Position numbers and translations under genes: made by a program | Notes under the pieces: generated by a model | What the model was told of the DNA's origin: nothing | Databases searched by the model: none | What the model saw: only the letters and a program-made list of their open reading frames with translations | NCBI GenBank assembly: GCA_021789355.1 | Contig: JAJYJR010000043.1 | Span: 1 to 17,885, forward strand | Direction of reading: 5' to 3' | Origin: Chloroflexota bacterium | GTDB taxonomy: Bacteria > Chloroflexota > Limnocylindria > Limnocylindrales > CSP1-4 | DNA: 17,885 nt | Shown: positions 1,803-16,897 of the stretch, one piece after another | Layout: each line of letters begins with the position of its first letter | How positions within the stretch are numbered: the stretch's first letter is position 1

Positions 1803-1840
1803 AGAAATCAAAGCGGGTCCCCGGTCTGCCGGGTTCGCTA
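1803..1840 (-). terminator. Probable intrinsic terminator of the minus-strand operon
   Basis: Immediately at the stop codon of the SorC gene, the minus strand can fold AGCG...CCCGG-CAGA-CCGGG...CGCT. The inner stem has five base pairs, the outer stem four, and a short asymmetric internal loop lies between them. A T-rich run (TTTGATTTCT, about 1812-1803) follows. The position, right at the end of the last gene of a five-gene operon, supports a terminator, although the T-run is interrupted. Confidence 0.45.
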
Positions 1841-2827
1841 CCTGGAGTCAGCCAGACCTGCCGCAGAGAAGGGCGGCACCTGATCCTGTCTCGACGCGTC
1901 AATCTCCAAGAGTGCCTCACCGAGTTCGTAGTCGGCAATGAGTTCGTCGATGAGGCCGCCCCCAATCGCCGCCCGGACAGAGCGTGCCTTGGCCGCCCCG
2001 CCGGCGACACCAATCACGCGTCGTGCGGCTCTCAGATCCTCGAGTGACAGTCCGACGGGGAAGAGCGAGGGCTCCTCGACCTCTCTGCCGGCAGCGTCAA
2101 AGTAGTGACCCAGGATCTCGCCTTCGGCACCGCGCGCGATGATCTCCCGCATCACGTGCGCGTCGACGAGTCCGTCACTGCGAAGCAGCGAGTCCTCCCC
2201 GACCACGCCGATCGACACGAGCGTCGCGTCGGCCGCACGGGCCAGTCGGAGGACCTGCTCTACCGGAGGAGAGGCCAGTAGGAACTGAAGCGAGGCCATG
2301 GAGTCGGCGAAGGCCGGGGACGGGAGGTGGACAGCCTCGGCGCCCAGTGCGGACGCGAGCGTCCGCGTGACCTCGATCGCCGGCGCCATGTCCTTCCCGC
2401 TCGCGTGGCCGACGGCATCCACGATGACCACGCCGGTCGTTCGCCGGGGCCTCACGAGATGAGCTGCAATGGCCAAGGTGCGACCCCAGCTCACCGCCAC
2501 CGTCTGGTGCCCACCGACGGCGAGTCGCTCGATGCGCCGCGCTCCCGCACGAGCCGCCGTCACCATGGAGCTGTCGTCGACCAGGCGCATCCCGATCTGC
2601 GCGGAGATGCCGAAGCGATCGCGGATCGCCTCGCCGAGCTTCATCTCGAGCGGCGCAGGCTCAGTCACCGTGACTTCGACGATGCCGAGCGCCTCGGCCT
2701 CATTGAGAGCGCGGCTAATCGTCGATCTCGACACGCTGAACCGCTTCGCGATCGTCTCCTGGTTCATTCCCAACTCGTAATGCAGCCGCGCGACCTCGAT
2801 GAGGAAGTCCCGACGCTCGGTCGCCAT
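1838..2827 (-). CDS. SorC-family transcriptional regulator
   Basis: This is a 329-residue DNA-binding regulator of the SorC/DeoR-like sugar-responsive type. Residues about 22-52 form the helix-turn-helix (NQETIAKRFSVSRSTISRAL). The rest is the SorC effector-binding domain, with a VAVSWGRTL segment and a C-terminal GVAGG...GGLIDELI segment. The family normally binds phosphorylated sugars at the position where related isomerases bind substrate. The start at 2827 is preceded by a purine-rich GAGGCGAGGG. It is the last gene of the operon, 26 bases after the RuBisCO-like gene, so its expression is probably tied to the enzymes. The likely targets are the two TGCAC-N4-GTGCA palindromes between the divergent operons. 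A 5-substituted ribulose or xylulose phosphate is the natural guess for the effector. Family call is firm; ligand and operator are inferred. Confidence 0.9.
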   Translation of the reverse strand: MATERRDFLIEVARLHYELGMNQETIAKRFSVSRSTISRALNEAEALGIVEVTVTEPAPLEMKLGEAIRDRFGISAQIGMRLVDDSSMVTAARAGARRIERLAVGGHQTVAVSWGRTLAIAAHLVRPRRTTGVVIVDAVGHASGKDMAPAIEVTRTLASALGAEAVHLPSPAFADSMASLQFLLASPPVEQVLRLARAADATLVSIGVVGEDSLLRSDGLVDAHVMREIIARGAEGEILGHYFDAAGREVEEPSLFPVGLSLEDLRAARRVIGVAGGAAKARSVRAAIGGGLIDELIADYELGEALLEIDASRQDQVPPFSAAGLADSR

Positions 2828-2853
2828 CCCTCGCCTCTGCTACCTACTGTGCC

Positions 2854-4017
2854 TCACGCTTGCATGGCCGCTGGGGACTCCCCTGTGTCGCCCACGGCTA
2901 CACGCATCCGTTTCACATTCTCCGACAGATCACCGCGGTGCAGACTGCCTCCGATCAGGAGCATGGTGTCTTGACCGTAGAAGTCGACGAGTTCCGCGGC
3001 ACGGTCGACGGTCATGCCGCCGCCCGGTGACGGGAAGATGGCCGAAACGCCCGGCAACGGGCTGCGGCAACCCGCCGCGACATCGAGGCATGCGGCGGGG
3101 CTGAAGCTGAACCGGCCACCGAAGCTCGGGAAGATGGAGATGTCTGCGCCGGCCAGCCTCGCGAGCGTGCCGAAGATGAGCCCGTGCCTGATTCCGGCAT
3201 GCTCGTCGGCCACGAACGAGCCTAGGAACGACGGGTGCATCATGATCGGGAGGGCCAGTCGATCGTCGTCCGCGAGGCGCCGCATCGTGTCGAGGCCAGC
3301 GAGACCGGGGAGGACGAGGAGTCCTCCCGCTCCTGCGTCCTTCGCCAGGCGCGCACGGCTCTCGAGTTGATCGGCTGGCGCGTTGAGCGATGGCAGATAG
3401 ATGGCGTGTCTCCCGGTGATCTGGTTGGCCTCACGTACGGCCGCGGCGCAGGCGACGACCCGCTCTTCGAAGAGCGCGAAGGGCTGGTTTGCGATGCCGT
3501 GATCGTCCTTGATGACGTCCATGCCGGCGATCGCGAGGGTCCGCGCCATGGCCGCAAGCGCAGCGCTCCCAAGCCCCACGGGCTTGAGGGCGGTGGCGAG
3601 TAGAGGCCGGCCCCAGACGCCGAGAAGCTGTCGCAGGCCAGTGATGCCGTAGCGTGGGCCACGGAATCGGCCGAGCAGCTCGATGGGCAGGTCGAGATCG
3701 ATGAGGCGCACGCCGGGGAACAGCGAGCAGTTGCCGAAGACGACGTTGAGGAGCTGGGGCAGCTCGAAGCCGGTAGTCTCGACGGCGTAGCTGATGCGCG
3801 CCAGCGTGGAGCCCCTGTCAGGCTGCAGCGCCCGTATCTGTCCGATCACGTGCCGACGGATGTCGTCATCTGCGATCAGGTCGGCGGGGAATTCGATTGT
3901 TTGCTCGATCGTGATCGCCTGTGCGCGCGCCTCCGCCTCCGCCGGCGGCGCGCTGATCGCGTAGGTGGCTTCGAAGCGAACACCCGAGACCGCAAGGGTC
4001 GTGGCTGGGATCGTCAT
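2854..4017 (-). CDS. RuBisCO-like protein (form IV), probable sugar-phosphate isomerase/enolase-type enzyme
   Basis: At 387 residues this is a RuBisCO large-subunit homologue but not a carboxylase. Recognisable family segments are GPRYGITGLRQLLGV (120-134), RPLLATALKPVGL (137-149), IKDDHGIANQPF (169-180), MMHPSFLGSF (259-268) and FPSFGGRFSFS (296-306), with a glycine-rich phosphate site LLIGGS near 354. K145 matches the general-base lysine and K170 the carbamylated lysine. The second lysine of the KPK motif is V147, and the metal-binding Glu of the KDDE motif is H173. Known RLPs act as enolases or isomerases in methylthioadenosine salvage, or in oxo-isoapionate catabolism. Position next to an MtnA homologue favours a 5-substituted ribulose 1-phosphate as substrate. 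Its ATG overlaps the stop of the transketolase C-subunit gene (ATGA at 4017-4014). The exact reaction cannot be read from sequence. Confidence 0.9.
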   Translation of the reverse strand: MTIPATTLAVSGVRFEATYAISAPPAEAEARAQAITIEQTIEFPADLIADDDIRRHVIGQIRALQPDRGSTLARISYAVETTGFELPQLLNVVFGNCSLFPGVRLIDLDLPIELLGRFRGPRYGITGLRQLLGVWGRPLLATALKPVGLGSAALAAMARTLAIAGMDVIKDDHGIANQPFALFEERVVACAAAVREANQITGRHAIYLPSLNAPADQLESRARLAKDAGAGGLLVLPGLAGLDTMRRLADDDRLALPIMMHPSFLGSFVADEHAGIRHGLIFGTLARLAGADISIFPSFGGRFSFSPAACLDVAAGCRSPLPGVSAIFPSPGGGMTVDRAAELVDFYGQDTMLLIGGSLHRGDLSENVKRMRVAVGDTGESPAAMQA

Positions 4018-5027
4018 AGCGAATCTGCCCGTTCCACGGTCCCGATGAGCTCTGGGGGCACGATGGCCAGCTCGGCCGGCTCGATCCCCAGGTCGTGGCC
4101 GAGCAACTGCTCGACGCCCCGCACGATCCCGGCCGCATCGAGACCGTACTCACGGGCCAGGTACGGTCGGCTGGCACCGTGTGCATACGTGTCCCGCAGC
4201 CCCACCCGGACCAGTCGCTTGCCCAGCCCCCGTTCGGCGATGCGTTCCGCGACTGCAGACCCGAGGCCGCCCACGATCGTGTGGTTCTCCGCCGTCACGA
4301 CGCCCGCGCGCCCCCGCGCGATGCTCTCTTCGATCTCCGGATCGTCGAATGGCTTGTGCGTCGAGACGTGTAGGAGACGGACGCCCACGCCGTGCGCCGC
4401 CAGGGCCCGCGTGGCGCGCATGGCCTCCTCGGTTTCGATGCCGGCGCTGAGCACCGTCGCGTCGTCTCCCTCCGACAGCACACGCACGCGATCGAGGCGC
4501 ATCGGGTCGCCGGGCGGGAACAGTCTGGGCATCACCCCGCGAAGCATCCGCACGTATACGGGGCCCTGGACCGCCTGCGCGACATCGAGCACTGACTCGA
4601 CGTCCGTCGCGTCGCCCGTCTCGAGCACGGTCATGTTCGGGGTGGCCCGCATGATCGCGACATCCTCGATCGCCTGATGACTGACGCCCCCCGGGGTCGT
4701 GATGCCCGGCAGGAATCCAATCAGGCGGACGCGAAGATTGGGGTAGGCGATCGACATCGCGAGCTGGTCGTAGGCGCGTCTATAGATGAAGACAGCGAAC
4801 GTATGAATGAACGGTGTGTAGCCTTCGCGGGCGAGCCCGCCTGCGAAGCTCAGCATGTTCTGCTCCGCCATCCCGACCGAGAAGAAGCGGTCAGGGTACG
4901 TGTCGCGCCACCGTCCAACCTCAGACGAGTTCGTCAGATCCGCGGACAGCACCACCACCTCGGGCTTGTCGGCCGCCCAACGGATGAAGTTCTCCACGTG
5001 CGGCCGCACCACGGTCTCGATGCTCAT
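4014..5027 (-). CDS. Transketolase, C-terminal (pyrimidine-binding) subunit
   Basis: This 337-residue protein is the second half of a split transketolase. It has the Pyr domain with the activating glutamate E55 in VGMAEQNM, then TTPGGVSHQAIED (110-122) and a C-terminal transketolase domain ending with AENHTIVGGLGSAVAE. It pairs with the N-terminal subunit encoded just upstream to form the thiamine diphosphate site at the interface. The open frame extends further upstream, but the ATG at 5027 makes a 4-base ATGA overlap with the partner gene and begins exactly where the family begins, so that start is chosen. Split transketolases of this kind occur in specialised sugar pathways, such as the AptA/AptB apulose-4-phosphate enzymes, as well as in general metabolism. 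Coupling to an RLP and an MtnA homologue suggests a specialised donor substrate here. Confidence 0.92.
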   Translation of the reverse strand: MSIETVVRPHVENFIRWAADKPEVVVLSADLTNSSEVGRWRDTYPDRFFSVGMAEQNMLSFAGGLAREGYTPFIHTFAVFIYRRAYDQLAMSIAYPNLRVRLIGFLPGITTPGGVSHQAIEDVAIMRATPNMTVLETGDATDVESVLDVAQAVQGPVYVRMLRGVMPRLFPPGDPMRLDRVRVLSEGDDATVLSAGIETEEAMRATRALAAHGVGVRLLHVSTHKPFDDPEIEESIARGRAGVVTAENHTIVGGLGSAVAERIAERGLGKRLVRVGLRDTYAHGASRPYLAREYGLDAAGIVRGVEQLLGHDLGIEPAELAIVPPELIGTVERADSL

Positions 5028-5944
5028 CGCAACATCGCCTCGTACGCCGCCCGATAGCGGGAACGTTCTTCGTCGGACGTCAACCGGACGGTGTGAAGCA
5101 ACGGTCTTCGTTCCGCGAGCAGCGGGATCCCACATGTCGGATCGGTGCGCGCAACGATGACGAGCGGGCTCGCGGACGCCTGCTCCATCGCGTCCGAGAG
5201 CGCGACCACGTTGTTGCCGTCGACCTCGACCGCAGTCGCTCCGAACGCCCGTATTCGAGCTGGCAACGGTTCCAGGAGGGCAACCGACGCGACTTCCCCA
5301 TCGCACTGTTGTCCGTTGGCGTCGACGACGACGCGGAGATTGTCGAGCCGGTGGAACGCGGCGTTGGCAATCGCCTCCCAGGTCTGGCCCTCTTCGAACT
5401 CGCCGTCCGACATCATGACCCACACGTGCCCGCTGTCGCCGCGTCGCTTGCGCGCGAGCGCGATGCCGGCCGCCTGACTGAGAGCCTGCGCAAGAGATCC
5501 CGCAGTGGTCTCGATACCAGGCGAGTGCTCCGCGCCGATCATCTCGACCGTGCCGCCGTCGCGGTTGAACTCGTCGAGTGCGTCGGGCACGAGCCGACCG
5601 ACCTCGATCAGGGCGGCGTACAGCGCCAGGGCGTCATGCACCGGCGAGAAGATCAGCCGATCGAACGCTGGGCCCCTTGGGCCGTTGGCCGCCGCCCCGG
5701 AGATGTAGTGAAGATTGTCTGCGCTGGGCACCCCCGTGAACGGGCCCGGCCGCACGGGTACCTCAAGAGGCGCCAGCCGGAGGATTCGCGTGTACAACGT
5801 GGCGAGGATCTCGGCGGACGAGCACGCCTGAGAGAGATAGCCCTCGCTGTGCTTCAGGGTGTGCTCGAACACGCGAAGCCGGATCCCGGCCGCAACCGCG
5901 TTCGCCCGCTGCGCCCAGGGAGGCGTGTCGCCAGGGATCATCAC
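5024..5944 (-). CDS. Transketolase, N-terminal (thiamine diphosphate-binding) subunit
   Basis: This 306-residue protein carries the diphosphate-binding half of transketolase. Residues 101-112 (PVHDALALYAAL) match the conserved GHxxxALYA segment. Residues 140-160 (HSPGIETTAGSLAQAL...) match HPxxxTPGVExSTGSLGQGL. SDGEFEEGQTWEA (179-191) to DAN (208-210) is the GDG-N metal/ThDP motif, with Ser in place of the first Gly. The start is either GTG 5944 or the adjacent ATG 5941. Both overlap the stop of the isomerase gene (GTGA or TGATG), indicating translational coupling. It must work with the C-terminal subunit. The donor ketose is unknown; the operon suggests the product of the MtnA and RLP steps. 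Confidence 0.92.
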   Translation of the reverse strand: MMIPGDTPPWAQRANAVAAGIRLRVFEHTLKHSEGYLSQACSSAEILATLYTRILRLAPLEVPVRPGPFTGVPSADNLHYISGAAANGPRGPAFDRLIFSPVHDALALYAALIEVGRLVPDALDEFNRDGGTVEMIGAEHSPGIETTAGSLAQALSQAAGIALARKRRGDSGHVWVMMSDGEFEEGQTWEAIANAAFHRLDNLRVVVDANGQQCDGEVASVALLEPLPARIRAFGATAVEVDGNNVVALSDAMEQASASPLVIVARTDPTCGIPLLAERRPLLHTVRLTSDEERSRYRAAYEAMLR

Positions 5945-6981
5945 GGGAGCACCTCCCCTGTTGTCGGCCCAAAGGGCGGGTGAAGCACGCCGACGTCTGT
6001 GATGTACGCGGAGATCAATGCGCCCGGAGTCACGTCGAATGCGGGATTCCAGACGGGAACGGCAGGCGGCGCGGCCCGGCAGCCCCGGAACAAGCGGATC
6101 TCATCTGCTGGGCGCTCCTCGACCACAATGTCTCGACCAGCGGCAGTCGCAGGATCGAATGTCGAGGACGCGGCCGCGACGTAGAAGGGCACGCCGGCAT
6201 GCCGCGCGAGAACTGCCAGTCCAAAGGTCCCGATCTTGTTGGCGGTGTCGCCGTTCGCGGCGATTCGGTCTGCTCCCACGACGACGGCGTCCACGCGCCC
6301 ACCATCCAGCAGGGCCGCCGCGGCCGAGTCCGCAACGAGCGTCACGTCGATTCCGGCGTCCAGAAGTTCCCACGCGGTCAGCCTTGCCCCCTGGAGGAGG
6401 GGCCGAGCCTCGCAGACGTAAACCTCGACAGGCTCGTGGGCCGCAGCTTTCGCGTACACGATGCCGAGCGCAGTTCCCCACCCGAGCGTGGCGAGGCGCC
6501 CCGTATTGCAGTGCGTCAGGATCCGGGTGACGCCGGCAAGGTAGGCGCGGCCGAACTCCCCAATCAGGCGGCACGCTTCGCGGTCCTCTTCGATGATGAG
6601 GAGCGCCTCGTCGAGCGCGCGCCGTCGTAACTCGTCGAAAGTCGCCGCCTGCGAGGCCGCGTCCCGGACGCGGCCGACCGCCCACATGAGGTTCACCGCG
6701 GTTGGACGTGCACGGCCGATCGTCTCGGCGAGTACGCCCAGGTGGGTTCGGGCGGCACCCAGGCTCTCGCCGTGCCAGGCATCAATCCCAAGCACCATGG
6801 CGAGAGCGCCGCATGCCCCGATCGCGGGAGCGCCGCGCACGGCGAGACGGCGAATGGCGTCGATCGCGGCCCCGCATGTCTCGAGCCGGGTCACGTTGAC
6901 GGCGGTCGGCAACTCGGTCTGATCGATGATCTCAATCGCCGCTCCGTCCCACGCCACTGCAGGGCGCAATCCGCTCGTCAT
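5941..6981 (-). CDS. mtnA: MtnA-type S-methyl-5-thioribose-1-phosphate (or 5-deoxyribose-1-phosphate) isomerase
   Basis: This 346-residue aldose-phosphate isomerase of the eIF2B-related family converts 5-methylthioribose 1-phosphate, or the 5-deoxy analogue, to the ribulose 1-phosphate. Visible motifs are RGAPAIG (49-55), THCNTGRLAT (156-165) with catalytic Cys C158, RPLLQGARLTAWEL (193-206), VGADRIAANGDTANKIGT (235-252) with catalytic Asp D238, and NPAFDVTPGALISAYIT (312-328). The pattern fits MtnA better than the archaeal ribose-1,5-bisphosphate isomerases. DrdI of 5-deoxyribose salvage is a close alternative. ATG 6981 is chosen because GAGGAAG lies just upstream; the frame extends to 7032. 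It is the first gene of the minus-strand operon and faces the divergent control region. Confidence 0.9.
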   Translation of the reverse strand: MTSGLRPAVAWDGAAIEIIDQTELPTAVNVTRLETCGAAIDAIRRLAVRGAPAIGACGALAMVLGIDAWHGESLGAARTHLGVLAETIGRARPTAVNLMWAVGRVRDAASQAATFDELRRRALDEALLIIEEDREACRLIGEFGRAYLAGVTRILTHCNTGRLATLGWGTALGIVYAKAAAHEPVEVYVCEARPLLQGARLTAWELLDAGIDVTLVADSAAAALLDGGRVDAVVVGADRIAANGDTANKIGTFGLAVLARHAGVPFYVAAASSTFDPATAAGRDIVVEERPADEIRLFRGCRAAPPAVPVWNPAFDVTPGALISAYITDVGVLHPPFGPTTGEVLP

Positions 6982-7099
6982 CACTTCCTCTTGCTCCCCG
7001 CGGCGTGCGGCCCACCGTCCAGGGTCCTCCACGACGATGCCCCTCCACAGCGCCGCTGCCTGCTGTTCCGCGACCGGCGGCCCTCAGATCGCGATGCGG

Positions 7100-7113
7100 T
7101 GCACGTTTGTGCA
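7100..7113. promoter_or_regulatory. Candidate operator copy 1, TGCAC-N4-GTGCA
   Basis: The sequence TGCACGTTTGTGCA is a 5-base inverted repeat around a 4-base centre. It differs from the second copy at one base. It also overlaps a second palindrome, GTTTG-TG-CAAAC (7105-7116). Position between divergent operons that include a SorC regulator gene makes it a likely binding site for that regulator. Confidence 0.55.
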
Positions 7114-7177
7114 AACGCCGCAATCTTGGTCGCCCATGGTACACGACCTGTCCAGTGGGGCTCTCCAGCCGCCGATA

Positions 7178-7191
7178 TGCACATTTGTGCA
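7178..7191. promoter_or_regulatory. Candidate operator copy 2, TGCAC-N4-GTGCA
   Basis: TGCACATTTGTGCA repeats copy 1, 78 bases downstream. It is nested inside a wider inverted repeat ATATGC (7175-7180) / GCATAT (7192-7197) that touches the -35 box of the rightward promoter. Binding here could block polymerase on the transporter operon. The two sites about seven helical turns apart would allow looping. Confidence 0.6.
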
Positions 7192-7196
7192 GCATA

Positions 7197-7224
7197 TTGA
7201 CAAACGACGATCTGACCCTATCAT
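7197..7224 (+). promoter_or_regulatory. Sigma-70-like promoter of the transporter-deaminase operon
   Basis: TTGACA (7197-7202) is a perfect -35 consensus. TATCAT (7219-7224) matches the -10 consensus at five of six bases, with a 16-base spacer. It lies 37 bases upstream of the lipoprotein ATG at 7262 and is followed by AGGAGG at 7247-7252. Overlap of the -35 with the candidate operator suggests repression by the SorC protein. Confidence 0.65.
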
Positions 7225-7261
7225 GCCACCAACCCTGATCGCGATGAGGAGGTAGTTCCCG

Positions 7262-8377
7262 ATGGTGTGGCGCGAGGGGATGACGCGGCGGACCTTCATC
7301 CGGCGTGCGGGTCAGCTCGGTGTGGGGGCCATCGGACTTGGCTCGGTCATGACGGTGCTCGACGCGTGCTCCGCCGGTTCCGCGACGGGCGCTCCATCAT
7401 CGTCAGCAGGCGCTGCACGAGCGTCGGCGTCCGCGGCACCGCCGGCGGCCCTGCAGGCCGTGAAGGTGCAGTTGTTGTGGATCGAGGACGTCGAGTTCGC
7501 TGGTCTGTACGCAGCAAGCTCACAGGGCTTCCTGAAAGCCGCGGGGCTCAGCCAGACGCTCATCCCGGGCGGCCCGCAGATCAACGCGATCCAGTCGGTC
7601 GCCGGGGGTGCGGCGCCGATCGGCCTGATCGGGTCCACGGATCAGATGATCCAGGCACGCGCCAACGGCGTCCCCGTCAAGATGATCGCTGCGACCTTCC
7701 AAACGGGCCCCTTCGGGGTGATGAGTCTCGCAAGCGCGCCGATCAAGACCCCGAGCGACCTCGTCGGCAAGAAGATCGGTCTCCAGGCAGGCGGACGGCC
7801 CACCTTCAGCGAGATGCTGAGCGCAAGCGGCCTGACCGCCAGCCAGATGACCATCGTGCCCGTCGGAACCGATCCGACTCCGCTCGTTAGCGGCCAGGTC
7901 GATGGGTTCTGGTCGTACGCCTTCAACCAGCCTCTCGAGCTCGCGGCGAAGGGCATCAAGACGACCATGCTGCTCGCCTCGACCGCCGGTGTGCCGGATT
8001 ACGGAGACGTCATCTTCACGCTCGACGATGTGCTCCAGAAGAACGAAGCGCTGCTCGTGAGCTGGTTGCGGGCCGCCGTTCAGGGCTGGCAGTACGCCCT
8101 CGCGAACCCTGCCGCCATGGCGAAGGAGACCGTCGATCAGTCGCCCAGCCTCAAGCTGAGCCTGTCGCAGCAGACCGCGCAGGCCTCCGCCCAGGTCCCG
8201 TTCCTGACATCGGCGCTGACGAAAGCGAAAGGGCTCCTCTGGATCGATCCGTCGTCGGTGTCCAAGTCGATCGATCTGAACCTCAAGACCGGTCAGATCA
8301 AGAGCGCCGTGAACGTCAACGATGTGATGACGACGACGATCCTCGAGAAGGCCTTCGGCGGAAAGACGACCCTCTGA
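7262..8377 (+). CDS. NMT1/THI5-like ABC transporter substrate-binding lipoprotein
   Basis: This 371-residue protein is the extracytoplasmic receptor of an uptake system. The N-terminus has a twin-arginine-like TRRTFIRR segment (8-15), a hydrophobic stretch, and a lipobox-like LDAC with C36 as the likely lipidated Cys. A low-complexity Ser/Ala linker follows. The mature domain begins near residue 60 and shows the NMT1/THI5 fold signature: a segment like EFAGLYAASSQGFLKAAGL, then a PGGP turn and a GGRP loop. Relatives bind aromatic or heterocyclic compounds (ThiY pyrimidines, RibY riboflavin precursors) or sulfonates. A nucleoside or purine-like ligand fits the downstream deaminase and phosphorylase. 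AGGAGG nine bases upstream supports ATG 7262 over the internal ATG at 7280. It is the first gene of the + strand operon. Confidence 0.88.
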   Translation: MVWREGMTRRTFIRRAGQLGVGAIGLGSVMTVLDACSAGSATGAPSSSAGAARASASAAPPAALQAVKVQLLWIEDVEFAGLYAASSQGFLKAAGLSQTLIPGGPQINAIQSVAGGAAPIGLIGSTDQMIQARANGVPVKMIAATFQTGPFGVMSLASAPIKTPSDLVGKKIGLQAGGRPTFSEMLSASGLTASQMTIVPVGTDPTPLVSGQVDGFWSYAFNQPLELAAKGIKTTMLLASTAGVPDYGDVIFTLDDVLQKNEALLVSWLRAAVQGWQYALANPAAMAKETVDQSPSLKLSLSQQTAQASAQVPFLTSALTKAKGLLWIDPSSVSKSIDLNLKTGQIKSAVNVNDVMTTTILEKAFGGKTTL

Positions 8378-8396: not shown

Positions 8397-9254
8397 GTGA
8401 TGCCGATGACCCCAGCGACCTCCCCGAGGGGACAGGGCGCAAGCGACTGCCCGAGCATCGAGTTGCTTGGCGTGAGCAAACGGTTCCACGCGGGCGCTGG
8501 TGAGGTCGAGGCGGTGCGTGACGTCAGCCTGCGGGTCGAACGGGGTGAGTTCGTCTCGATCATCGGGCCCTCGGGCTGCGGCAAGTCGACCACGCTGCGG
8601 ATCGTGGCGGATCTCACCCCTCCCACGGCGGGCATCGTTCGCGTCGAGGGAGGATCGGCTTCGGATGCGCGGCGGGCGCGCCGCTTCGGCATGGTCTTCC
8701 AGGATCCGGTGCTGCTGCCCTGGAGGACGCTCGACAAGAACGTGGCGCTGCCGCTCGAGGTGGCCGGGATCCGCCCGTCGGCGGCCCCACGGCGACCGCA
8801 GGATCTGATCAAGCTCGTCGGACTCCAGGGATTTGAGCACATGCTGCCGTCCCAGCTGTCGGGCGGAATGCGTCAGCGCGCCGCGATCGCACGTGCGCTC
8901 GTCCTGGACCCGTCGATCCTGTTGCTCGACGAGCCCTTCGGGGCTTTGGACGAGTTCACCCGCCAGCGGCTCAACCTCGACCTCCTGCGGATCTGGAGCG
9001 AGAGCGACACGACTGCGCTGCTCGTCACGCACAGCATCTCCGAAGCGGTACTCCTCTCCGATCGGGTAGTAGTCATGACCAATCGTCCGGCGACGATCTC
9101 CACGATCATCAGGGTCGACCTGCCACGTCCGCGGACCCTCGCGGCTCTGCGGAGCCGCGAGGCATTCGAGATCATCCGCGACGCCTCCGAGGCTCTCTAC
9201 GGTGAGGCGGAGGACCGAGACGCGGTCGAGGCTCCGGGCCCCAGGGTCTCCTAG
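8397..9254 (+). CDS. ABC transporter ATP-binding protein (TauB/SsuB/ThiZ type)
   Basis: This 285-residue ATPase energises the uptake system. It has Walker A GPSGCGKST (57-65), a Q-loop FQDPVLLPW (101-109), signature LSGGMRQR (154-161), Walker B ILLLDEPFG (174-182), a D-loop ALDE and the switch histidine H212 in VTHS. This layout matches ATPases that serve NMT1/THI5, taurine, sulfonate and nitrate importers. The start is not certain: GTG 8397, ATG 8400 and ATG 8406 lie close together and none has a strong ribosome site. The longest is given. It follows the lipoprotein gene after 19 bases. Confidence 0.93.
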   Translation: MMPMTPATSPRGQGASDCPSIELLGVSKRFHAGAGEVEAVRDVSLRVERGEFVSIIGPSGCGKSTTLRIVADLTPPTAGIVRVEGGSASDARRARRFGMVFQDPVLLPWRTLDKNVALPLEVAGIRPSAAPRRPQDLIKLVGLQGFEHMLPSQLSGGMRQRAAIARALVLDPSILLLDEPFGALDEFTRQRLNLDLLRIWSESDTTALLVTHSISEAVLLSDRVVVMTNRPATISTIIRVDLPRPRTLAALRSREAFEIIRDASEALYGEAEDRDAVEAPGPRVS

Positions 9255-10040: not shown

Positions 10041-10861
10041 GGGCCGCGAGGCAGCCGACCCTCGACCAGCGGAAGGGCACCCGCGGGGCGGCAATGTTGT
10101 CGGGGTTGATGTCACGCCTCAGGTCGCTCGCGTTGCGGCTCACCGGGCTGGCGCTCCTGATTGCAGTCTGGCAGTTCGCCACAGCGGCGCTCGACGTTCC
10201 CACGTACCTGCTGCCCCAGCCGGTCGTGCTCGCGTTCGGCCTCGTGCAGGATCAGGCGGTGATTCTCGATGGCCTGCGGCCACTCGCGTTCGAAGCCACC
10301 CTTGGGTTCCTGCTCGGCAACGGACTAGGGCTTGCCCTCGCGATCACGGTCGACAGCGTCCGCTGGGCAAGGGGGGCAGTGTACCCGCTCGCCCTCGCCA
10401 TCCGGAGCGTCCCGATCGTCGCGATCACGCCGCTGATCTCCCTCATCCTGGGGTTTGGCACGCAGACCACCGTCGCGGTCGCGACGCTGATTTCCTTCTT
10501 CCCGATGTTCGTGAACATGAGTCGCGGGCTCGTGGCGGTGGACAGGCAGGCGCTCGAGCTGTTCGAGGTTCTCGACGCCGGGACGCTCAAGACATACCGG
10601 GCACTCCGTTGGCCGTCCTCCCTGCCGTACCTGTACGCCTCGTTGAAGGTCACTGCCCCCGGTGCCGTCCTCGGGGCGATGATCGCCGAATACATCGCGT
10701 CCAACTCGGGCCTCGGCTACATGCTCCAGAGCGCCGCAACGACCTACCAGTATCGGCTGATGTGGGAAGTAACAGTCGTGGCCACCGCGCTCGTGATCGT
10801 GATCTTCTTCGCTGTGACCTGGCTGGAGCGGCGGTTGGTTCCCTGGGCAGCGCCCCGATGA
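10037..10861 (+). CDS. ABC transporter permease 2 (BPD-type)
   Basis: This 274-residue permease is related to, but clearly diverged from, permease 1. It has a leader of about 25 polar residues, then membrane segments and an EAA-type loop (ALELFEVLDAGTLKTYRALR and onwards to LPYLYASLK). ATG 10037 lies in a 4-base overlap with permease 1. ATG 10094 (MLSGLMSRL...) is an alternative start nearer the first membrane segment. The stop overlaps the deaminase ATG (10858-10861). That coupling ties transport to the first catabolic step. Confidence 0.92.
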   Translation: MRAARQPTLDQRKGTRGAAMLSGLMSRLRSLALRLTGLALLIAVWQFATAALDVPTYLLPQPVVLAFGLVQDQAVILDGLRPLAFEATLGFLLGNGLGLALAITVDSVRWARGAVYPLALAIRSVPIVAITPLISLILGFGTQTTVAVATLISFFPMFVNMSRGLVAVDRQALELFEVLDAGTLKTYRALRWPSSLPYLYASLKVTAPGAVLGAMIAEYIASNSGLGYMLQSAATTYQYRLMWEVTVVATALVIVIFFAVTWLERRLVPWAAPR

Positions 10862-12189
10862 CGCAGGCGATCGACCCGCCGGTGCATGACCTGTTGGTCC
10901 GGGACGGTGCCGTGCTGGCGGCGCCCGGCGCCTCGGCGCCGCTCGCACACCACGACGTGGCGGTCGACGGCACGCGGATCACCGCGGTGGGCCCGACGGG
11001 CAGCATCGGAGCCGGGCAGACGGTGGTCAATGCGCGCGGCAAGGCCGTGCTGCCAGGCCTTGTCAACTGCCACAGCCACGCTCCAATGAGCCTCTTCCGG
11101 GGCACCGCCGACCCCATGCCGCTGCAGCCGTGGCTGGCCCACAACGCGCCGTACGCCGGACGATTCGACGAGGAGGACGTCTACTGGGGCGCCCTTCTGG
11201 CCGCGTGCCAGATGCTTCGCGCCGGTGTCACGACGTTCGCGGACATGTACCACCACCAGGCCCTTGTGATACCCGCGCTCGAGCAGATCGGAATCCGCGC
11301 GTTTCTCGCGGAGGGTGTGATGGAGGCCTCCCAGAACCTTTTCATCGGCTCTGTCGAGGATCAACTGGAGCGTGCGGACACCCTCGTTCACCTGGACGCC
11401 GCCCTGGCCGGCGGCCGCATCGTCGCGGGGATCGCACCGCACTCGGTCTACACCTGCAGCGGAGGCCTCCTGCGCGAGGTCGCAGAGATGGCCCGTGACG
11501 CCGGGTGTCGCGTGCATACGCATGTGTCCGAGACGAGGCGCGAGGTCGAGGAATGCGAGGCTGTTCATGGGCGACGGCCGCCGGGCTACTTGGCGGAGTG
11601 CGGCATCTTCGACAATCCGACACTCGCGGCGCATGCCGTGCACCTCGACGCGGAGGACATCGCGTTGCTCGCCGAGCGTGGCGTTGCGGTCGCGCACAAC
11701 CCGGCGAGCAACCTCAAGCTGCGCTCCGGGTTGGCGCCCGTGCCGGCGCTTCTCGAGGCCGGTGTCCGCGTGGGCCTCGGGACCGACGGCGCCGGCAGCA
11801 ACGACTCGCTCGACATGTGGCGCGACTGCTACCTCGCCGCGGTGCTGCACCCGTGGGCCGACGAGGTCTCGCCTGCCGCCATGGCCCTGGAGCTCGCGAC
11901 TGCCGGCGGGGCCGCGGCCCTCGGCATGGACTCCGAGATCGGCGCCATCGCGGTCGGGATGAAGGCTGATCTGGCAGTCATCGACCTCGAGCGTACCAAC
12001 CTCGTTCCGGCGCTCGACGCGACGCGTGTGCTGGCGTTCGCCGCCCGTGGGGACGAGGTCGACCAGGTGGTCGTCGATGGTCGCGTGGTCGTGATGGAAG
12101 GGCGGGTGCTCGGCGTCAACGAAGCAGAAGTCATAGAACAGTGCCGACGGCGCGCGCGGCGCATTTTCGAACAAGGAGCGGTCGCATGA
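10858..12189 (+). CDS. mtaD: Amidohydrolase-family deaminase, 5'-methylthioadenosine/S-adenosylhomocysteine deaminase type
   Basis: This 443-residue metal-dependent deaminase probably converts MTA or a related 5'-modified adenosine to the inosine analogue plus ammonia. It has the amidohydrolase HxH metal pair in PGLVNCHSHAPMSLFRG (H72, H74), APHSVYTCS (193-201), HTHVSETRREVEE (220-232) with metal ligand H220, HAVHL (259-263), and the metal/catalytic Asp D310 in GLGTDGAGSNDSLDM. These match MtaD/SAH deaminases closely; TrzN/AtzA-type and guanine or cytosine deaminases of the same COG are alternatives. ATG 10858 is chosen for the ATGA overlap with the permease stop, and because the domain starts there; the frame is open further upstream only as a shadow of the permease. 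The following Asn-type phosphorylase fits an inosine-type product. Confidence 0.88.
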   Translation: MTQAIDPPVHDLLVRDGAVLAAPGASAPLAHHDVAVDGTRITAVGPTGSIGAGQTVVNARGKAVLPGLVNCHSHAPMSLFRGTADPMPLQPWLAHNAPYAGRFDEEDVYWGALLAACQMLRAGVTTFADMYHHQALVIPALEQIGIRAFLAEGVMEASQNLFIGSVEDQLERADTLVHLDAALAGGRIVAGIAPHSVYTCSGGLLREVAEMARDAGCRVHTHVSETRREVEECEAVHGRRPPGYLAECGIFDNPTLAAHAVHLDAEDIALLAERGVAVAHNPASNLKLRSGLAPVPALLEAGVRVGLGTDGAGSNDSLDMWRDCYLAAVLHPWADEVSPAAMALELATAGGAAALGMDSEIGAIAVGMKADLAVIDLERTNLVPALDATRVLAFAARGDEVDQVVVDGRVVVMEGRVLGVNEAEVIEQCRRRARRIFEQGAVA

Positions 12190-13556
12190 ACATCGTGGTC
12201 GTGGTCGCGGACACGTTTCGACGGGATCACCTTCCCGCCTACGGCAATTCGACGGTCTATGCACCGCACCTGACCGCCTTTGCAGAGCAGGCGCTCGTGT
12301 TCGACGACTGTCGACCCGCCTCGTTCCCCACCGTGCCCGCGCGCGCCGACATCATGACCGGCCGCTACACGTTCGCCTACCAGGACTGGGGTCCGCTCGG
12401 CGTGGAGGAGCAGACGCTCGCGCAGACGCTGAGCACGCACGGGTACCTCACCTGCGGCATCGCAGACACGCCTTTCTTCATGCGGAACGGGTACGGGTAC
12501 GATCGCGGCTTCCACGACTTCCAGTGGATTCGCGGCCAGCGACAGGGTCCCGAGCGCGACGACATCCAGGCGAGCTGGCACGGCGAGGCGGATCGCTTCG
12601 CCCCGACCACCTTTCGCGCCGCCTGTGACTGGCTCGAACGGCATCACCGTGAGCAGTTCTTCCTGTACATCGATACGTGGGACCCGCACGAGCCATGGGA
12701 CCCGCCGGAGTTCTATGTCCGTCGCTACCTGCCGGACTACTCGGGTGCGCAGGTTGCCCCCAGCTACTGGGATTGGAAGGAGAGCGGCCTGACGCAGCGC
12801 GACCTGGAGGTGGCGCACGCCTGCTACATGGGCGAGATCTCGATGGTCGACCGCGCCTTCGGAGCGCTCATCGAGCGCCTGAGCTCGCTCGGCATCCTTG
12901 ACGACACCGCGGTCTTCTTCACGTCGGACCATGGCTACTACTTCGGAGAGCACGGCCTGCTCGGCAAAAGCCTGTTCCGCTGGGCTGGTGACGTGCCCTT
13001 CGAGGATGGCTGGATCCAGGGCGTCAAGATGGGCTACATCTACCGTTCCCCGCTCCACAACGAAGTCACGCGGGTGCCGCTGTTCGCCCGCATCCCGGGC
13101 GTGCAGCCGCGGCGGATCGCCGGGCTCGTGCAGTTGCCCGATCTCATGCCCACGATCTTGGATCTTGCGGGCATCGAGCCTCCGTCGCGCGTGCTGGCGA
13201 CCTCGCTCATGCCCCTAGCGCAAGGCAAGGTTCAGTCCGCGCACGCGTTCGTGACGACGTCGGCCGCCCTGCACAACCCGGGCGAGGTGTCACGCATGGT
13301 GGACGACCAGGTCCGCGAGATCGTGCAGGGATCGCCCAGCACGATCACCGATGGAGAGTGGGACCTCCTGTACAGCACGAACGATGAACCGATCGAGCTC
13401 TACAGGACCCGTGAGGACCCGGGTCACCTCCACAACGTCGTGGCCGACCACAAGGATGTGGCCGAGGCCCTGCACCGGAAGTTCCGCACGTGGCTCGAGG
13501 GCGTCGGGACACCCGAATCCGCGCTGGCGGCTCGCGAGCGCCTGCCGCGCCCGTGA
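12186..13556 (+). CDS. Alkaline-phosphatase-superfamily 'sulfatase' with Thr nucleophile position
   Basis: This 456-residue hydrolase is built like a type I sulfatase but lacks the catalytic Cys. The N-terminal metal segment is VVADTFRRDHL (D9, D14). The CxPSR formylglycine motif reads T49-V50-P51-A52-R53 inside SFPTVPARADIMTGRY. The C-terminal metal and active-site block is TSDHGYYFGEHGLLGK (D248, H249, K261), followed by HNEVTRVPLF. With Thr at the nucleophile position no formylglycine can form. Thr is the nucleophile in nucleotide pyrophosphatase/phosphodiesterases and phosphopentomutases of the same superfamily, so a phosphoester or phosphodiester substrate is plausible. No signal peptide is visible, so it is probably cytoplasmic. 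ATG 12186 overlaps the deaminase stop (ATGA). Role in the pathway is unknown. Confidence 0.82.
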   Translation: MNIVVVVADTFRRDHLPAYGNSTVYAPHLTAFAEQALVFDDCRPASFPTVPARADIMTGRYTFAYQDWGPLGVEEQTLAQTLSTHGYLTCGIADTPFFMRNGYGYDRGFHDFQWIRGQRQGPERDDIQASWHGEADRFAPTTFRAACDWLERHHREQFFLYIDTWDPHEPWDPPEFYVRRYLPDYSGAQVAPSYWDWKESGLTQRDLEVAHACYMGEISMVDRAFGALIERLSSLGILDDTAVFFTSDHGYYFGEHGLLGKSLFRWAGDVPFEDGWIQGVKMGYIYRSPLHNEVTRVPLFARIPGVQPRRIAGLVQLPDLMPTILDLAGIEPPSRVLATSLMPLAQGKVQSAHAFVTTSAALHNPGEVSRMVDDQVREIVQGSPSTITDGEWDLLYSTNDEPIELYRTREDPGHLHNVVADHKDVAEALHRKFRTWLEGVGTPESALAARERLPRP

Positions 13557-14359
13557 ACCCGCTCTCCGGCGTCGATTCCGCGCGCGCTGAGACCGGGCAG
13601 CCAGGCCGTACCGCGGTGATCGCGGGCAGCGGGGGCGAGCGGGCGCTGCCAGGCTACCGGCAGGAGACGGTCGACACGCCGTACGGGCAGGCGCTCGTGT
13701 TCCGGGCCACCGAGGAGGACCCGATATTCCTCTCGCGGCACGGGCCCGAACACGACCTGCCGCCGCATCGCATCAACTACCGTGCGAACATCAGCGCACT
13801 GCGACTGCTGGGCGTGGATCGGGTGTTGGCGACGTTCACCGTTGGCTCGCTCGTCGAGGAGGTGGCGCCGGGAGACGTCGTCCTGCCGGACCAGGTGCTC
13901 GACTTCTCCAGCGGTCGTGCGGCGACGTTCTTCGAGGGTGGCGAGGCAGGCGTCGAGCATGCCGAGTTCACCGAGCCGTTCTGCAGCAGCCTCCGCGCGG
14001 CGCTGGTGCGTGCCGCGGGAGCCGGCGGCCTCGCTGTCCGGCCCGCCGCCACCTATGTGTGCACCAACGGCCCCCGGCTCGAGACAGCGGCAGAGGTCCG
14101 CATGTACGCGATGCTGGGGGGCGACGTGGTCGGCATGACCGCCATGCCCGAGGTCGTCCTGGCTCGCGAAGCCGGGCTCCATTACGCGGGCATCGCCGTG
14201 AGCGTGAATTGGGCGGCCGGACTGCGCGGATCGGTCGTGCTCGATCGGGTCGCGATCGACTCGGTGCGTTCCACCCTCGTTCCGCTGATGCTCGCGGCGC
14301 TTCGGGAGGTCCCAGCCGGGGAATGCTCGTGCGCGCGTTCCGTCGATCAGCGTGGCTGA
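13553..14359 (+). CDS. MTAP/PNP-family nucleoside phosphorylase, probable S-methyl-5'-thioinosine phosphorylase
   Basis: This 268-residue phosphorylase splits a purine nucleoside with phosphate to base plus ribose-1-phosphate analogue. Family motifs are the N-terminal VIAGSGG, the HDLPPHRINYRANISAL segment (67-83), CTNGPRLETAAEVRMYAMLG (170-189) and GMTAMPEVVLAREAG (194-208). At the base-recognition site human MTAP has Asp220 and Asp222 for 6-aminopurines. Here the aligned stretch is SVNWAAG (217-223), giving N219 and A221. Asn at this place goes with 6-oxopurines in PNP and in Pseudomonas methylthioinosine phosphorylase. That fits a deaminated substrate from the upstream deaminase. The start is GTG 13553, overlapping the sulfatase-like stop (GTGA); the frame upstream is a shadow. 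Alignment was done by eye. Confidence 0.85.
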   Translation: MNPLSGVDSARAETGQPGRTAVIAGSGGERALPGYRQETVDTPYGQALVFRATEEDPIFLSRHGPEHDLPPHRINYRANISALRLLGVDRVLATFTVGSLVEEVAPGDVVLPDQVLDFSSGRAATFFEGGEAGVEHAEFTEPFCSSLRAALVRAAGAGGLAVRPAATYVCTNGPRLETAAEVRMYAMLGGDVVGMTAMPEVVLAREAGLHYAGIAVSVNWAAGLRGSVVLDRVAIDSVRSTLVPLMLAALREVPAGECSCARSVDQRG

Positions 14360-14437
14360 CCGGCTGGCGCGCGGTGTCCGTGCGGGGGCCCGCGGCCCGG
14401 GGAAGTCTCCCGGTGCTCCCCGAGCCGGGCGACGAGC

Positions 14438-16897
14438 ATGCGCGCGGACGACCGGAGCATCGGTGTGCGACGCGGCGGCGCGGGCGAAGCCGTGAGCGGG
14501 AAAGCGATGCCGGATTCCTCGCGCCGGTCGGGCCGTGCCGTGTCCGGAGTGAGTTCGACGCCACGCCGTGGTCAGCTTCGACTCTCGCACAGCTCGCACT
14601 GGGGGGCGTTCGAGGCCGTCATCGGCGATGACCACGTCCTGCACGTCGACCCTCACCCACTGGACCCCGCACCGTCGGCGCTGCTTCGCAACATCCCGAG
14701 CGCTCTTTCCACGGGGGCGCGGATTCGTCGCCCCGCCATCCGCAAAGGCTGGCTCAACGACGGACCCGGGCCCGACTCTCGACGCGGAAGCGATCCGTTC
14801 GTCGAAGTGAGCTGGGACGAGCTTCTCGACCTGCTCGCTAGCGAGCTGCGTCGCGTGTACGGCCGGTTCGGAGCCAGCTCGGTCTACGGGGGCTCGTACG
14901 GCTGGGCCAGCGCGGGTCGCTTCCATCACGCGCAGAGCCAGCTCCACCGCTTCCTCAACGGGCTCGGTGGGTACGTGCGCAGCGTGAACACGTACAGCAG
15001 CGCCGCCGCCGAGGTGCTCTTCCCGCACATCGTCGGGACCGGCGAGGACGTGATTCACGGTGGCACCAGCTGGTCCGCGATCCGCGACGAGACGGAACTG
15101 GTGGTCGCCTTCGGGGGGCTGCCGCCGAAGAACCTCGCAGTGGCGTCCGGCGGCATCACGCGCCACAGTTCGGCCGCCCAGCTGCGCATGGCGGCGGTGC
15201 GTGGCACCAGGTTCGTGCTGCTCAGCCCGCTGCGCAGCGACATGGCAGACGAGCTCGGTGCACGCTGGCTGCCGCTGCGGCCCGGAACCGACGTTGCCGT
15301 GATGCTTGCCCTAGCACACACCCTCGTGGCCCGAGGGTGGTATGACCGTGCGTTCATCCAGCGGTACACGAACGGCTTCGAGAGGTTCGCGCGGTATCTC
15401 ATGGGGGACGCCGACGGGATATCGAAAGATCCGGAGTGGGCTGCCCGGATCTCGGGCCTCGATGCTGCGACCCTCACCGAGCTTGCCCTCGAGATGGCCG
15501 AGCGGCGGACATTCATCACTGTCACGTGGTCTCTCCAGCGTGCGGATCATGGTGAGCAGCCTCCGTGGATGGGTCTCGTGCTGGCATGTCTGCTCGGCCA
15601 GATCGGCCTGCCAGGCGGTGGTTTCGGACACGGCTATGGGTCGATGGCGGACACCGGTGCCGAGCAGTCTGGGCTGCCGCTTCCCACGCTCGAACAGGGC
15701 ACGAATCCAGTTCGAGAGTTCATCCCGGTGGCGCGTATCGCCGACATGCTGCTCGGGCCGGGGTCACGGGTCGACTACGACGGGCAGACGTTGACGTATC
15801 CCGACATCCGGCTCGTCTACTGGAGTGGTGGCAACCCCTTCCACCACCATCAGCACACGAGCCGGCTGCGACGGGCGATGCAGCGGCCGGACACCATCGT
15901 GGTCCACGATCCGTACTGGACGGCGACCGCGCGGCACGCGGACATCGTCGTGCCATCGACCACCAGCCTCGAGCGCGCCGATATCGGCGCGGCTCGCAGG
16001 GACCTCTACCTCATGGCCATGCGCCAGGTCTCGCCACCGTCAGCCGAGGCGCGCGACGATTTCGACGTGTTCGGCGATCTCGCCTCGGAACTCGGGACAC
16101 ATCGGGCGTTTACGGAGAATCGCACGTCGGCCGAGTGGCTGCCGCACCTCTACGAACGATGGCGCGCGGAGATCGCGGGGCGCGGAACGGCGGTTCCCGC
16201 GTTTGACCAGTTCTGGCGGGACGGCTTCGTTCGCCTGCCATCTCGGCCACCCACGGTGTTCCTTTCCAGCTTCCGCTCCGACCCCGACCGTTTCCCTCTC
16301 CACACCCCTAGCGGCCGGATCGAGATCTTCTCGAGCGTGATCGACGCGTTCGGCTACGACGACTGCCCCGGTCAACCTGCGTGGCTGGAACCCGCCGAAT
16401 GGCTCGGAGGGCCGCTGGCCAGCCGGTATCCGCTGCACCTGATCGCGAACCAGCCTCGCACGCGCCTGCACAGCCAACTCGACATGGGAGAGTACAGCCA
16501 GTCCTCCAAGGTGGCCGGGCGTGAGCCCCTGTGCATCAACCCCACCGACGCACTCGCGAGAGGGATCGCAGACGGCGACGTGGTCCGGGTCTTCAACGAT
16601 CGCGGCTCATGCTTGGCGGGCGCGGTGGTAACGAGCGGGATTCGCGCCGGGGTCGTGCAACTCTCGACGGGCGCGTGGTATGACCCACTCGACCCCTCGG
16701 ACGTGAACAGCATGTGTGTGCACGGCAGCGTCAACGTGCTCACGTACGACAAGGGCACGTCGCGGCTCGCGCAGGGCAACTGCGGGCAGCACGCTCTTGT
16801 TGAGATCGAGAGATATGGTGCCGTGCCGCCACCGGTTCGTGCCCACGAGCACCCGCGGTTTGTCAGTACAGACACGGATCCGCGCGGCCTGTCATGA
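14438..16897 (+). CDS. BisC-like molybdopterin oxidoreductase (S- or N-oxide reductase), cytoplasmic
   Basis: This protein of up to 819 residues belongs to the DMSO reductase family and is closest in pattern to E. coli biotin sulfoxide reductase BisC. It lacks the N-terminal Cys cluster for an Fe-S centre. SHWGAFEAVI (53-62) matches the BisC start. GGSYGWASAGRFHHAQ (151-166) carries S153, the likely molybdenum-ligating Ser. Later blocks include LPLRPGTDVAVMLALAHTLV, GQIGLPGGGFG, HADIVVPSTTSLER and RLHSQLDMGEYS. No hydrophobic or twin-arginine signal precedes the domain, so it should act in the cytoplasm. The start is uncertain: homology begins near residue 48, so ATG 14507 or GTG 14540 may be the real start. 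It lies 78 bases after the phosphorylase. Probable substrate: an S-oxide (methionine, biotin or thio-nucleoside) or N-oxide. Confidence 0.9.
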   Translation: MRADDRSIGVRRGGAGEAVSGKAMPDSSRRSGRAVSGVSSTPRRGQLRLSHSSHWGAFEAVIGDDHVLHVDPHPLDPAPSALLRNIPSALSTGARIRRPAIRKGWLNDGPGPDSRRGSDPFVEVSWDELLDLLASELRRVYGRFGASSVYGGSYGWASAGRFHHAQSQLHRFLNGLGGYVRSVNTYSSAAAEVLFPHIVGTGEDVIHGGTSWSAIRDETELVVAFGGLPPKNLAVASGGITRHSSAAQLRMAAVRGTRFVLLSPLRSDMADELGARWLPLRPGTDVAVMLALAHTLVARGWYDRAFIQRYTNGFERFARYLMGDADGISKDPEWAARISGLDAATLTELALEMAERRTFITVTWSLQRADHGEQPPWMGLVLACLLGQIGLPGGGFGHGYGSMADTGAEQSGLPLPTLEQGTNPVREFIPVARIADMLLGPGSRVDYDGQTLTYPDIRLVYWSGGNPFHHHQHTSRLRRAMQRPDTIVVHDPYWTATARHADIVVPSTTSLERADIGAARRDLYLMAMRQVSPPSAEARDDFDVFGDLASELGTHRAFTENRTSAEWLPHLYERWRAEIAGRGTAVPAFDQFWRDGFVRLPSRPPTVFLSSFRSDPDRFPLHTPSGRIEIFSSVIDAFGYDDCPGQPAWLEPAEWLGGPLASRYPLHLIANQPRTRLHSQLDMGEYSQSSKVAGREPLCINPTDALARGIADGDVVRVFNDRGSCLAGAVVTSGIRAGVVQLSTGAWYDPLDPSDVNSMCVHGSVNVLTYDKGTSRLAQGNCGQHALVEIERYGAVPPPVRAHEHPRFVSTDTDPRGLS

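Follow-up and report, generated by a model that had tools for sequence, protein, structure and literature searches.

Nearly all cells form 5'-methylthioadenosine (MTA) and 5'-deoxyadenosine as by-products when they use S-adenosylmethionine (SAM), and recently discovered routes for their breakdown have revealed unusual chemistry, involving ethylene, methanethiol and isoprenoid precursors. In Pseudomonas aeruginosa MTA is presumably converted to methylthioinosine and then to 5-methylthioribose-1-phosphate (MTR-1-P) by a deaminase and thioinosine phosphorylase pair like that described below; its later steps reportedly do not use a RuBisCO-like protein (RLP) and a transketolase. Known branches are described in PMC5893883, PMC6302742, PMC8102628, PMC10986504, PMC10663253 and PMC9594981, cited here and below from excerpts. 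In the MTA-isoprenoid shunt of Rhodospirillum rubrum and Rhodopseudomonas palustris, a cupin strips the methylthio group to give 1-deoxy-D-xylulose-5-phosphate (DXP; PMC5893883), and the dihydroxyacetone phosphate (DHAP) shunt runs through MtnP or MtnN/MtnK, MtnA and Ald2 (PMC5893883, PMC10986504). Here we analyse a 17,885-nucleotide stretch of a Chloroflexota genome (assembly GCA_021789355.1, contig JAJYJR010000043.1; hereafter the window), in which two divergent operons encode MtnA, an RLP, a split transketolase (TK), an importer, a deaminase and a phosphorylase. We suggest, with a probability of roughly 0.7, that this locus encodes an RLP/TK route for 5'-substituted adenosines, MTA first, with TK replacing the cupin.

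Phosphorolysis of MTA, MtnA and an RLP making 1-methylthioxylulose-5-phosphate are features common to the locus and to the MTA-isoprenoid shunt as excerpted, and the two RLPs probably belong to one clade; the locus differs in having a split transketolase at the cupin's place and no cupin. By sequence, MtnA, the phosphorylase and a shunt-clade RLP are present in the window, and the cupin is absent. With the DHAP shunt it shares the entry to 5-methylthioribulose-1-phosphate (MTRu-1-P) and the split into a three-carbon and a sulfur-bearing two-carbon unit, but in the excerpted accounts that shunt uses an aldolase, yielding DHAP and methylthioacetaldehyde, and no RLP; no aldolase was found in the window. 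The sulfo-transketolase pathway of SqwGH likewise splits a sulfur-bearing sugar into two-carbon units by a transketolase, but its substrate is a sulfonated ketose, its sulfur ends on the released aldehyde, and the excerpt names no RLP (PMC9594981). A promiscuous transketolase step has been suggested in Methanocaldococcus jannaschii 5'-deoxyadenosine salvage, and a transketolase makes 7-deoxysedoheptulose from 5-deoxyribose, in both cases with no RLP step named in the excerpt (PMC8102628). In the open-access literature we found no report that joins an RLP to a transketolase to process MTRu-1-P, a weak absence with the subscription literature largely outside it, and we class the proposed RLP/TK route as a further branch of MTA metabolism.

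We propose that the importer would take up a 5'-substituted adenosine, MTA first and possibly MTA sulfoxide or 5'-deoxyadenosine, and that the BisC-type enzyme would reduce the sulfoxide, if present. The deaminase would convert the adenosine to its inosine analogue, the thioinosine phosphorylase would release hypoxanthine and MTR-1-P, and MtnA would isomerise the latter to MTRu-1-P. The RLP would then form 1-methylthio-D-xylulose-5-phosphate through the 1,3-isomerisation that isoprenoid-shunt RLPs are described to perform, and the split TK would cleave the C2–C3 bond of this product to yield glyceraldehyde-3-phosphate and a sulfur-bearing two-carbon fragment, taking the place held by the cupin methylsulfurylase in the MTA-isoprenoid shunt. 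For this organism the individual reactions, the substrate and what becomes of the two-carbon fragment are all inferred. If the route operates, the RLP–TK pairing would be a second partner for the isoprenoid-shunt RLP clade, would explain some of its cupin-less members, and might be an added natural source of methanethiol or methylthio-compounds.

Family scans of the window proteins recovered every gene named in a first-pass annotation made from the window's letters alone, in the two divergent operons about a shared control region that it had described. None of MtnB/C/D, MtnW/X, the cupin or a class II aldolase scored above cut-off among these proteins, as that annotation had also stated, and its order of phosphorylase, MtnA, RLP and TK is supported. 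Taken as a whole its interpretation is partly supported. It had not assigned the RLP to a type, which the tree below does, and had called the phosphorylase MTAP-family; a phosphorylase is present, but its type is that of thioinosine (NF006599). Its importer, deaminase and phosphorylase stand, but its reasoning left out two further members of that operon that fall within its own coordinates, a sulfatase-fold hydrolase and a BisC-family S-oxide reductase.

We collected relatives of the window RLP from 24 of 177 genomes in the class of the genome of locus L001 (E 1e-10; five at 62–66% identity), 17 of 385 in the class of G180 (L004, a Rhodopila metagenome-assembled genome, MAG; Alphaproteobacteria) and 21 of 369 in the class of G178 (L002, Chromatium okenii; Gammaproteobacteria), both at E 1e-40, and from 2 of 5 in the order of G384 and 9 of 301 in the phylum of G001, both at 1e-60 (L, loci; G, genomes). 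The final tree has 77 rows, with plasmid and genome-contig loci, and leaves out L048 (frameshifted fragments), L107 (a duplicate of L004) and RLP pieces of at most 250 residues such as L091. A single clade with support 100/100 holds 63 of the 77 rows, including the window RLP and the cupin-linked RLPs, which makes 1-methylthioxylulose-5-phosphate the likely product. The partners of these 63 RLPs are a TK in 22, a cupin in 33 (28 adjoining, 5 fused), neither in 8 and both in none. TK and cupin are thus mutually exclusive in the loci examined, a clean natural experiment beside one RLP clade.

Thirteen rows had first been labelled as partnerless, and five of them proved to be RLP-cupin fusions in a single open frame of 527–688 residues (L128, L131, L132, L134 and L136, class of G178); such fusions lend support to a direct coupling of both isoprenoid-shunt steps. 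Neither TK nor cupin lies near the shunt-clade RLPs of L002, L120, L123, L124, L164, L165, L167 and L111. Three of these eight (L111, L165, L167) are at or near a contig or stretch end, where a partner may be cut off, and an FGGY kinase stands at the L165 locus; a third partner of this clade may exist.

An earlier, smaller tree had hinted at a single TK clade, which the larger tree does not keep: TK and cupin rows are intermixed, with cupin loci L166 and L168 among TK loci L104, L121 and L163, some forks being weakly supported. Only two alignment columns separate TK-linked from cupin-linked RLPs at the 80% level, the active-site residues K145, K170, D172 and R302 are at least 97% conserved over the 63 rows, and H173 is present in 49 of 50 TK and cupin rows. 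Because the rows interleave in one clade and only two columns differ, TK-linked and cupin-linked RLPs probably share one reaction. We rejected a true RuBisCO (the best structure match was 3qfw, followed by MtnW-type and RLP entries) and an MtnW enolase (168 bits against a cut-off of 513.6). RLPs and split transketolases presumably also serve sugar catabolism in the D-apionate pathway, with its OiaX RLPs and apulose-4-phosphate transketolase; that candidate too was rejected, the window RLP scoring 84.5 bits against the OiaX cut-off of 700. Outside the shunt clade, a separate RLP clade has an adjoining class II aldolase-family gene (L137, L138, L139), and L096 and L097, in the class of L001's genome, carry a more distant split TK (262–267 bits) near RLPs of another clade.

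The two TK halves, N-terminal (TKN) and C-terminal (TKC), have as nearest solved relatives the two halves of the Carboxydothermus split TK. Relative to human TKT (H37 and H110 read, R318 and H258 placed, by eye), H37 is replaced by Tyr, H110 by Ile, H416 by Leu and D424 by Gly, where one residue is also missing; E366, S345 and R474 have retained counterparts, and so, probably, have R318 and H258, which are conserved across rows. Y36, I136 and H284 occur in 22 of 22 TKN rows with letters, as does the DG at 180–181 of the ThDP-type motif, and in TKC the catalytic Glu E62 and G120 occur in 25 of 25 rows, L113 and R170 in 23 of 25 each. The altered residues presumably contact donor hydroxyls or phosphate and the retained ones the thiamine diphosphate (ThDP) and phosphate, as we take it from TK structures. 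This pattern fits a donor having a 5-phosphate and lacking the 1-hydroxyl.

The TKC subfamily looks sharply bounded in plasmids: among the best 45 of 355 records, 24 have at least 54.9% identity and the next has 47.7%. Twenty-two of these 24 also appear in the RLP list, with TKC and RLP matches about 100 bases apart or less, and in the class of G180 TKC was found at E 1e-90 in 2 of 385 genomes (G384, G526), with an RLP beside the TK in both. The remaining two plasmid records are from Marinovum algicola (L188) and Paracoccus seriniphilus (L189). There (L188:2831-15940, L189:1674-14701) the TK stands with an XylB-like kinase, a Zn-dehydrogenase, an AraD-like epimerase, a BisC-family enzyme, a Cys-motif sulfatase, an ABC importer (SsuA-family in Marinovum) and SorC, and neither stretch has an RLP, MtnA, deaminase or phosphorylase similar to those of the window. 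The Marinovum proteins were scanned, whereas names for the Paracoccus proteins come from similarity to these and from annotation, with a scan for the sulfatase as well. The kinase–epimerase set could deliver D-xylulose-5-phosphate or an analogue; the RLP and kinase/epimerase routes could thus both yield a D-xylulose-5-phosphate analogue, which further supports the proposed TK substrate. Plain xylulose-5-phosphate is possible as the TK substrate in these two loci, which perhaps serve the catabolism of a sulfated, oxide-bearing pentitol.

The first-pass annotation had made its proposal depend on recurrence of these genes elsewhere, and RLP, split TK and often MtnA do recur, in classes of Chloroflexota, Alphaproteobacteria and Gammaproteobacteria. 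Of the 22 TK loci, 15 include MtnA within the stretch that was fetched, whereas none of the 28 loci with a cupin next to the RLP does. In L103 and L161 (two genomes of one order) MtnA and TKN form a single protein, with open frames of 699 and 649 residues, which ties MtnA to TK. Also encoded in L103 are SorC, a nucleoside transporter of CNT type (TIGR00804, 301 bits against a cut-off of 442) and a purine nucleoside phosphorylase (PNP)-like frame. Counterparts of both window operons occur together on a Ponticoccus plasmid (L039), where PNP, amidohydrolase, MtnA, molybdoenzyme, TKN, TKC and RLP follow in a row and the opposite strand carries a BMP-type (nucleoside-type) importer and a SorC-type regulator. 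On this count the first-pass proposal was not refuted. Nine TK loci (L001, L038, L040, L042-L046, L162) have MtnK in place of the nucleoside enzymes, the L001 kinase exceeding the MTR kinase cut-off (367 bits vs 275). With nucleoside enzymes in some TK loci and MtnK in others, the module would be fed by MTR-1-P made either way.

Both operons of the window appear to form one regulon through a common operator, as the first-pass annotation had proposed. The palindrome TGCACRTTTGTGCA occurs as two exact copies in the control region, and with at most two mismatches it has three matches in the window against 0.09 expected. In the 1.77 Mb of loci and window together, TGCAC-N4-GTGCA has six exact matches against about two expected from base composition: two belong to the window, and L001, L087, L089 and L090 have a single copy, in every case just upstream of the TKN frame. 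Exact matches were not found in L088, L162 and L163, nor in the proteobacterial loci tested. SorC is the putative binder of this palindrome, through which it would control both operons. A promoter-like TTGACA-16-TATCAT agrees with the consensus at 11 of 12 positions (0.2 expected in the control region), a consensus match only.

We looked for the conventional salvage enzymes in relatives' genomes. MtnA and MtnD were sought in 11 genomes, nine with TK and two (G178, G598) that have an RLP with no TK found beside it. MtnA matched in 11 of 11, above cut-off in 10; MtnD was above cut-off in 0 of 11, with a single weak match in G001, in a search that was above cut-off in just 2 of its 14 named control genomes. 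The shunt cupin had no match in 11 of 12 TK genomes and one weak match (G953, 44.6 bits), and was matched in 5 of 5 cupin genomes (235–269 bits in three, 107–111 in two) by a model built partly from two of those five (G638, G296). Class II aldolase-family matches occurred in 15 of 17 genomes searched.

Several observations weigh against the RLP/TK route as we have drawn it. A bifunctional aldolase/short-chain dehydrogenase (SDR) gene lies in 10 of 22 TK loci, with a class II aldolase too in three of these, so TK need not be the sole cleavage route there and an aldolase route may run in parallel. No MtnA was seen in the fetched stretch of 7 of 22 TK loci, some stretches being short, and on a Vibrio nigripulchritudo plasmid (L047:4297-17638) RLP and TK lie between two FGGY kinases without MtnA, so the module is not limited to methylthio substrates. 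The RLP clade was assigned from cupin linkage and from 3qfw as the closest structure, in a tree that does not name the R. rubrum and R. palustris RLPs; many of the TK loci sit on Rhizobiaceae plasmids, which makes them non-independent; and Shinella zoogloeoides has an RLP without a TK in the stretch examined. Two of 25 TKC rows deviate at L113, P119, H124 and R170, and H110 falls in a weakly conserved stretch, aligned ungapped with human TKT but facing a gap in the alignment with 6yak. The window substrate-binding protein has no similar sequence in the Marinovum and Paracoccus loci. The window molybdoenzyme is about 55–58% identical to BisC-family proteins of many Rhizobium plasmids versus 45–49% to those beside TK; specific orthology across TK loci failed this control and was rejected, so its link to TK is by family only.

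The same route could have 5'-deoxyadenosine or 5-deoxyribose as its true substrate, DXP being the RLP product that TK would split into glyceraldehyde-3-phosphate and an acetaldehyde-level fragment. We regard this as possible, if doubtful: the thioinosine type of the phosphorylase, itself a bare cut-off pass, and the BisC-family S-oxide reductase in the operon both speak against it, and DXP is, we assume, needed as an isoprenoid precursor. In its favour, the 5-substituent is not specified by TK, RLP or MtnA, the deaminase also matches a 5'-deoxyadenosine deaminase model (NF005557, 309 bits, below the cut-off of 522), many MtnK-type loci hold class II aldolase or aldolase/SDR genes, and the DHAP shunt employs MtnK and MtnA to use 5-deoxyribose, according to the excerpt (PMC10986504). 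A rather unlikely reading concerns the last step, with TK acting like phosphoketolase or sulfoacetaldehyde acetyltransferase (Xsc), so that the ThDP-bound fragment would expel methanethiol and leave as acetyl phosphate or acetate. The leaving group would be beta to the ThDP carbanion, chemistry that we take to be known for Xsc and phosphoketolase, and no methylthio-aldehyde dehydrogenase is present among the window operon genes or annotated in the Ponticoccus operon. Yet phosphate-acceptor residues were not identified, the models listed as scoring for TK are those of transketolase, DXS and pyruvate dehydrogenase and include none for phosphoketolase, and an SDR or aldehyde dehydrogenase is present in other TK loci. 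Spelled out for MTA, this would be an undescribed SAM-by-product branch, in our estimate an unlikely one, in which the split TK expels methanethiol from 1-methylthio-D-xylulose-5-phosphate in a single ThDP-dependent step to give glyceraldehyde-3-phosphate and acetyl phosphate (or acetate); were it so, TK would provide an exit that needs neither oxygen, cupin nor reductant and loses none of the five sugar carbons from central metabolism.

An oxide other than that of MTA might be the true cargo, such as a sulfoxide or a dimethylarsinoyl (arsenosugar-type) riboside from which a sulfate or phosphate ester is removed first. A BisC-family enzyme does lie beside TK in four loci (window, L039, L188, L189), with sulfatase-fold enzymes and ABC importers in the window, L188 and L189, but recruitment of the molybdoenzyme holds only at family level, the hydrolase of the window carries Thr where the two marine ones have Cys (identity 27–28%), and nothing points to arsenic; we consider this improbable. 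Ordinary nucleoside use, in which the RLP would convert plain ribulose-1-phosphate to xylulose-5-phosphate for a normal pentose-phosphate transketolase, seems very improbable. It would suit the Ponticoccus phosphorylase, which is of general PNP type, and that of L103, which resembles the Ponticoccus one (508 bits vs 235 with the window-phosphorylase model). Against this, H37, H110 (alignment uncertain) and D424 are absent, conserved TK residues are altered in 22 of 22 TKN rows, the window phosphorylase is of thioinosine type, the L001 kinase passes the MTR kinase cut-off, and the detour would presumably be superfluous for ribose-1-phosphate. We retain the RLP/TK route for 5'-substituted adenosines as our preferred reading.

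Within the nucleoside operon the assignments differ in firmness. All 25 NCBIfam models shown for the deaminase score below their cut-offs, NF012037 for example at 250 bits against 779. The phosphorylase barely passes its model, and its nearest solved chain, 3ozb, is one we take to be the Pseudomonas thioinosine phosphorylase. In the sulfatase-fold hydrolase, Thr occupies the position in the C-x-P-x-R motif at which formylglycine sulfatases need Cys or Ser. A ribose-1,5-bisphosphate route was rejected on the MtnA score, which compares with 191 bits for the ribose-1,5-bisphosphate isomerase model. Features of the window are listed in the table.

Table. Predicted genes and control elements of the window, with the evidence for each.
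Feature	Position	Strand	Evidence
SorC/DeoR-type sugar-phosphate-responsive regulator	1838..2827	-	NF053881 SorC-family DeoR model 148 bits, below cut-off 420
RLP, isoprenoid-shunt clade; predicted MTRu-1-P 1,3-isomerase	2854..4017	-	nearest solved chain 3qfw; tree clade
Split transketolase C-terminal half (TKC)	4014..5027	-	nearest solved chain 6yaj, split TK; L113, G120, E62
Split transketolase N-terminal half (TKN), ThDP-type motif	5024..5944	-	nearest solved chain 6yak; Y36, I136
MtnA, 5-methylthioribose-1-phosphate isomerase	5941..6981	-	TIGR00512 399 bits vs cut-off 279; nearest solved 1t9k
Shared divergent control region, 280 bp	6982..7261	.	sequence read
Putative SorC operator copy 1, TGCACGTTTGTGCA	7100..7113	.	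same palindrome just 5' of TKN in L001, L087, L089, L090
Putative SorC operator copy 2, TGCACATTTGTGCA	7178..7191	.	palindrome match
Sigma-70-like promoter facing importer operon, TTGACA-16-TATCAT	7197..7224	+	consensus match only
ABC importer substrate-binding protein, SsuA/ThiY-like, NMT1	7262..8377	+	family scan
ABC importer ATPase	8397..9254	+	family scan
ABC importer permease 1	9264..10040	+	family scan
ABC importer permease 2	10037..10861	+	family scan
MTA/5'-deoxyadenosine-type deaminase (amidohydrolase)	10858..12189	+	nearest solved 4f0r, MTA/SAH deaminase; models below cut-off
Sulfatase-fold (alkaline phosphatase superfamily) hydrolase, Thr replacing formylglycine Cys	12186..13556	+	PF00884 134 bits; alignments
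S-methyl-5'-thioinosine phosphorylase type	13553..14359	+	NF006599 223.3 bits, cut-off 223; nearest solved 3ozb
BisC-family S/N-oxide reductase (molybdoenzyme)	~14507..16897, start codon uncertain	+	TIGR00509 987 bits, cut-off 1017.55

With the starts chosen in this analysis, the RLP, TKC, TKN and MtnA genes overlap by four bases at each junction. Rfam at gathering thresholds and a tRNA scan gave no matches in the window. Named relatives of the window RLP include one from a Chloroflexi MAG at 66% identity and, among the 120 of 2180 proteins listed, entries of Candidatus Limnocylindria type and of Dormibacteria and Acidimicrobiia. On the Ponticoccus plasmid the RLP is followed, in line with the operon, by a 336-residue protein (L039:16076-17086) that has no Pfam or NCBIfam match. 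The window cluster itself is flanked by a GAF-EAL domain protein (11-1318) and a DnaJ-domain protein (17288-17884, below the Pfam cut-off).

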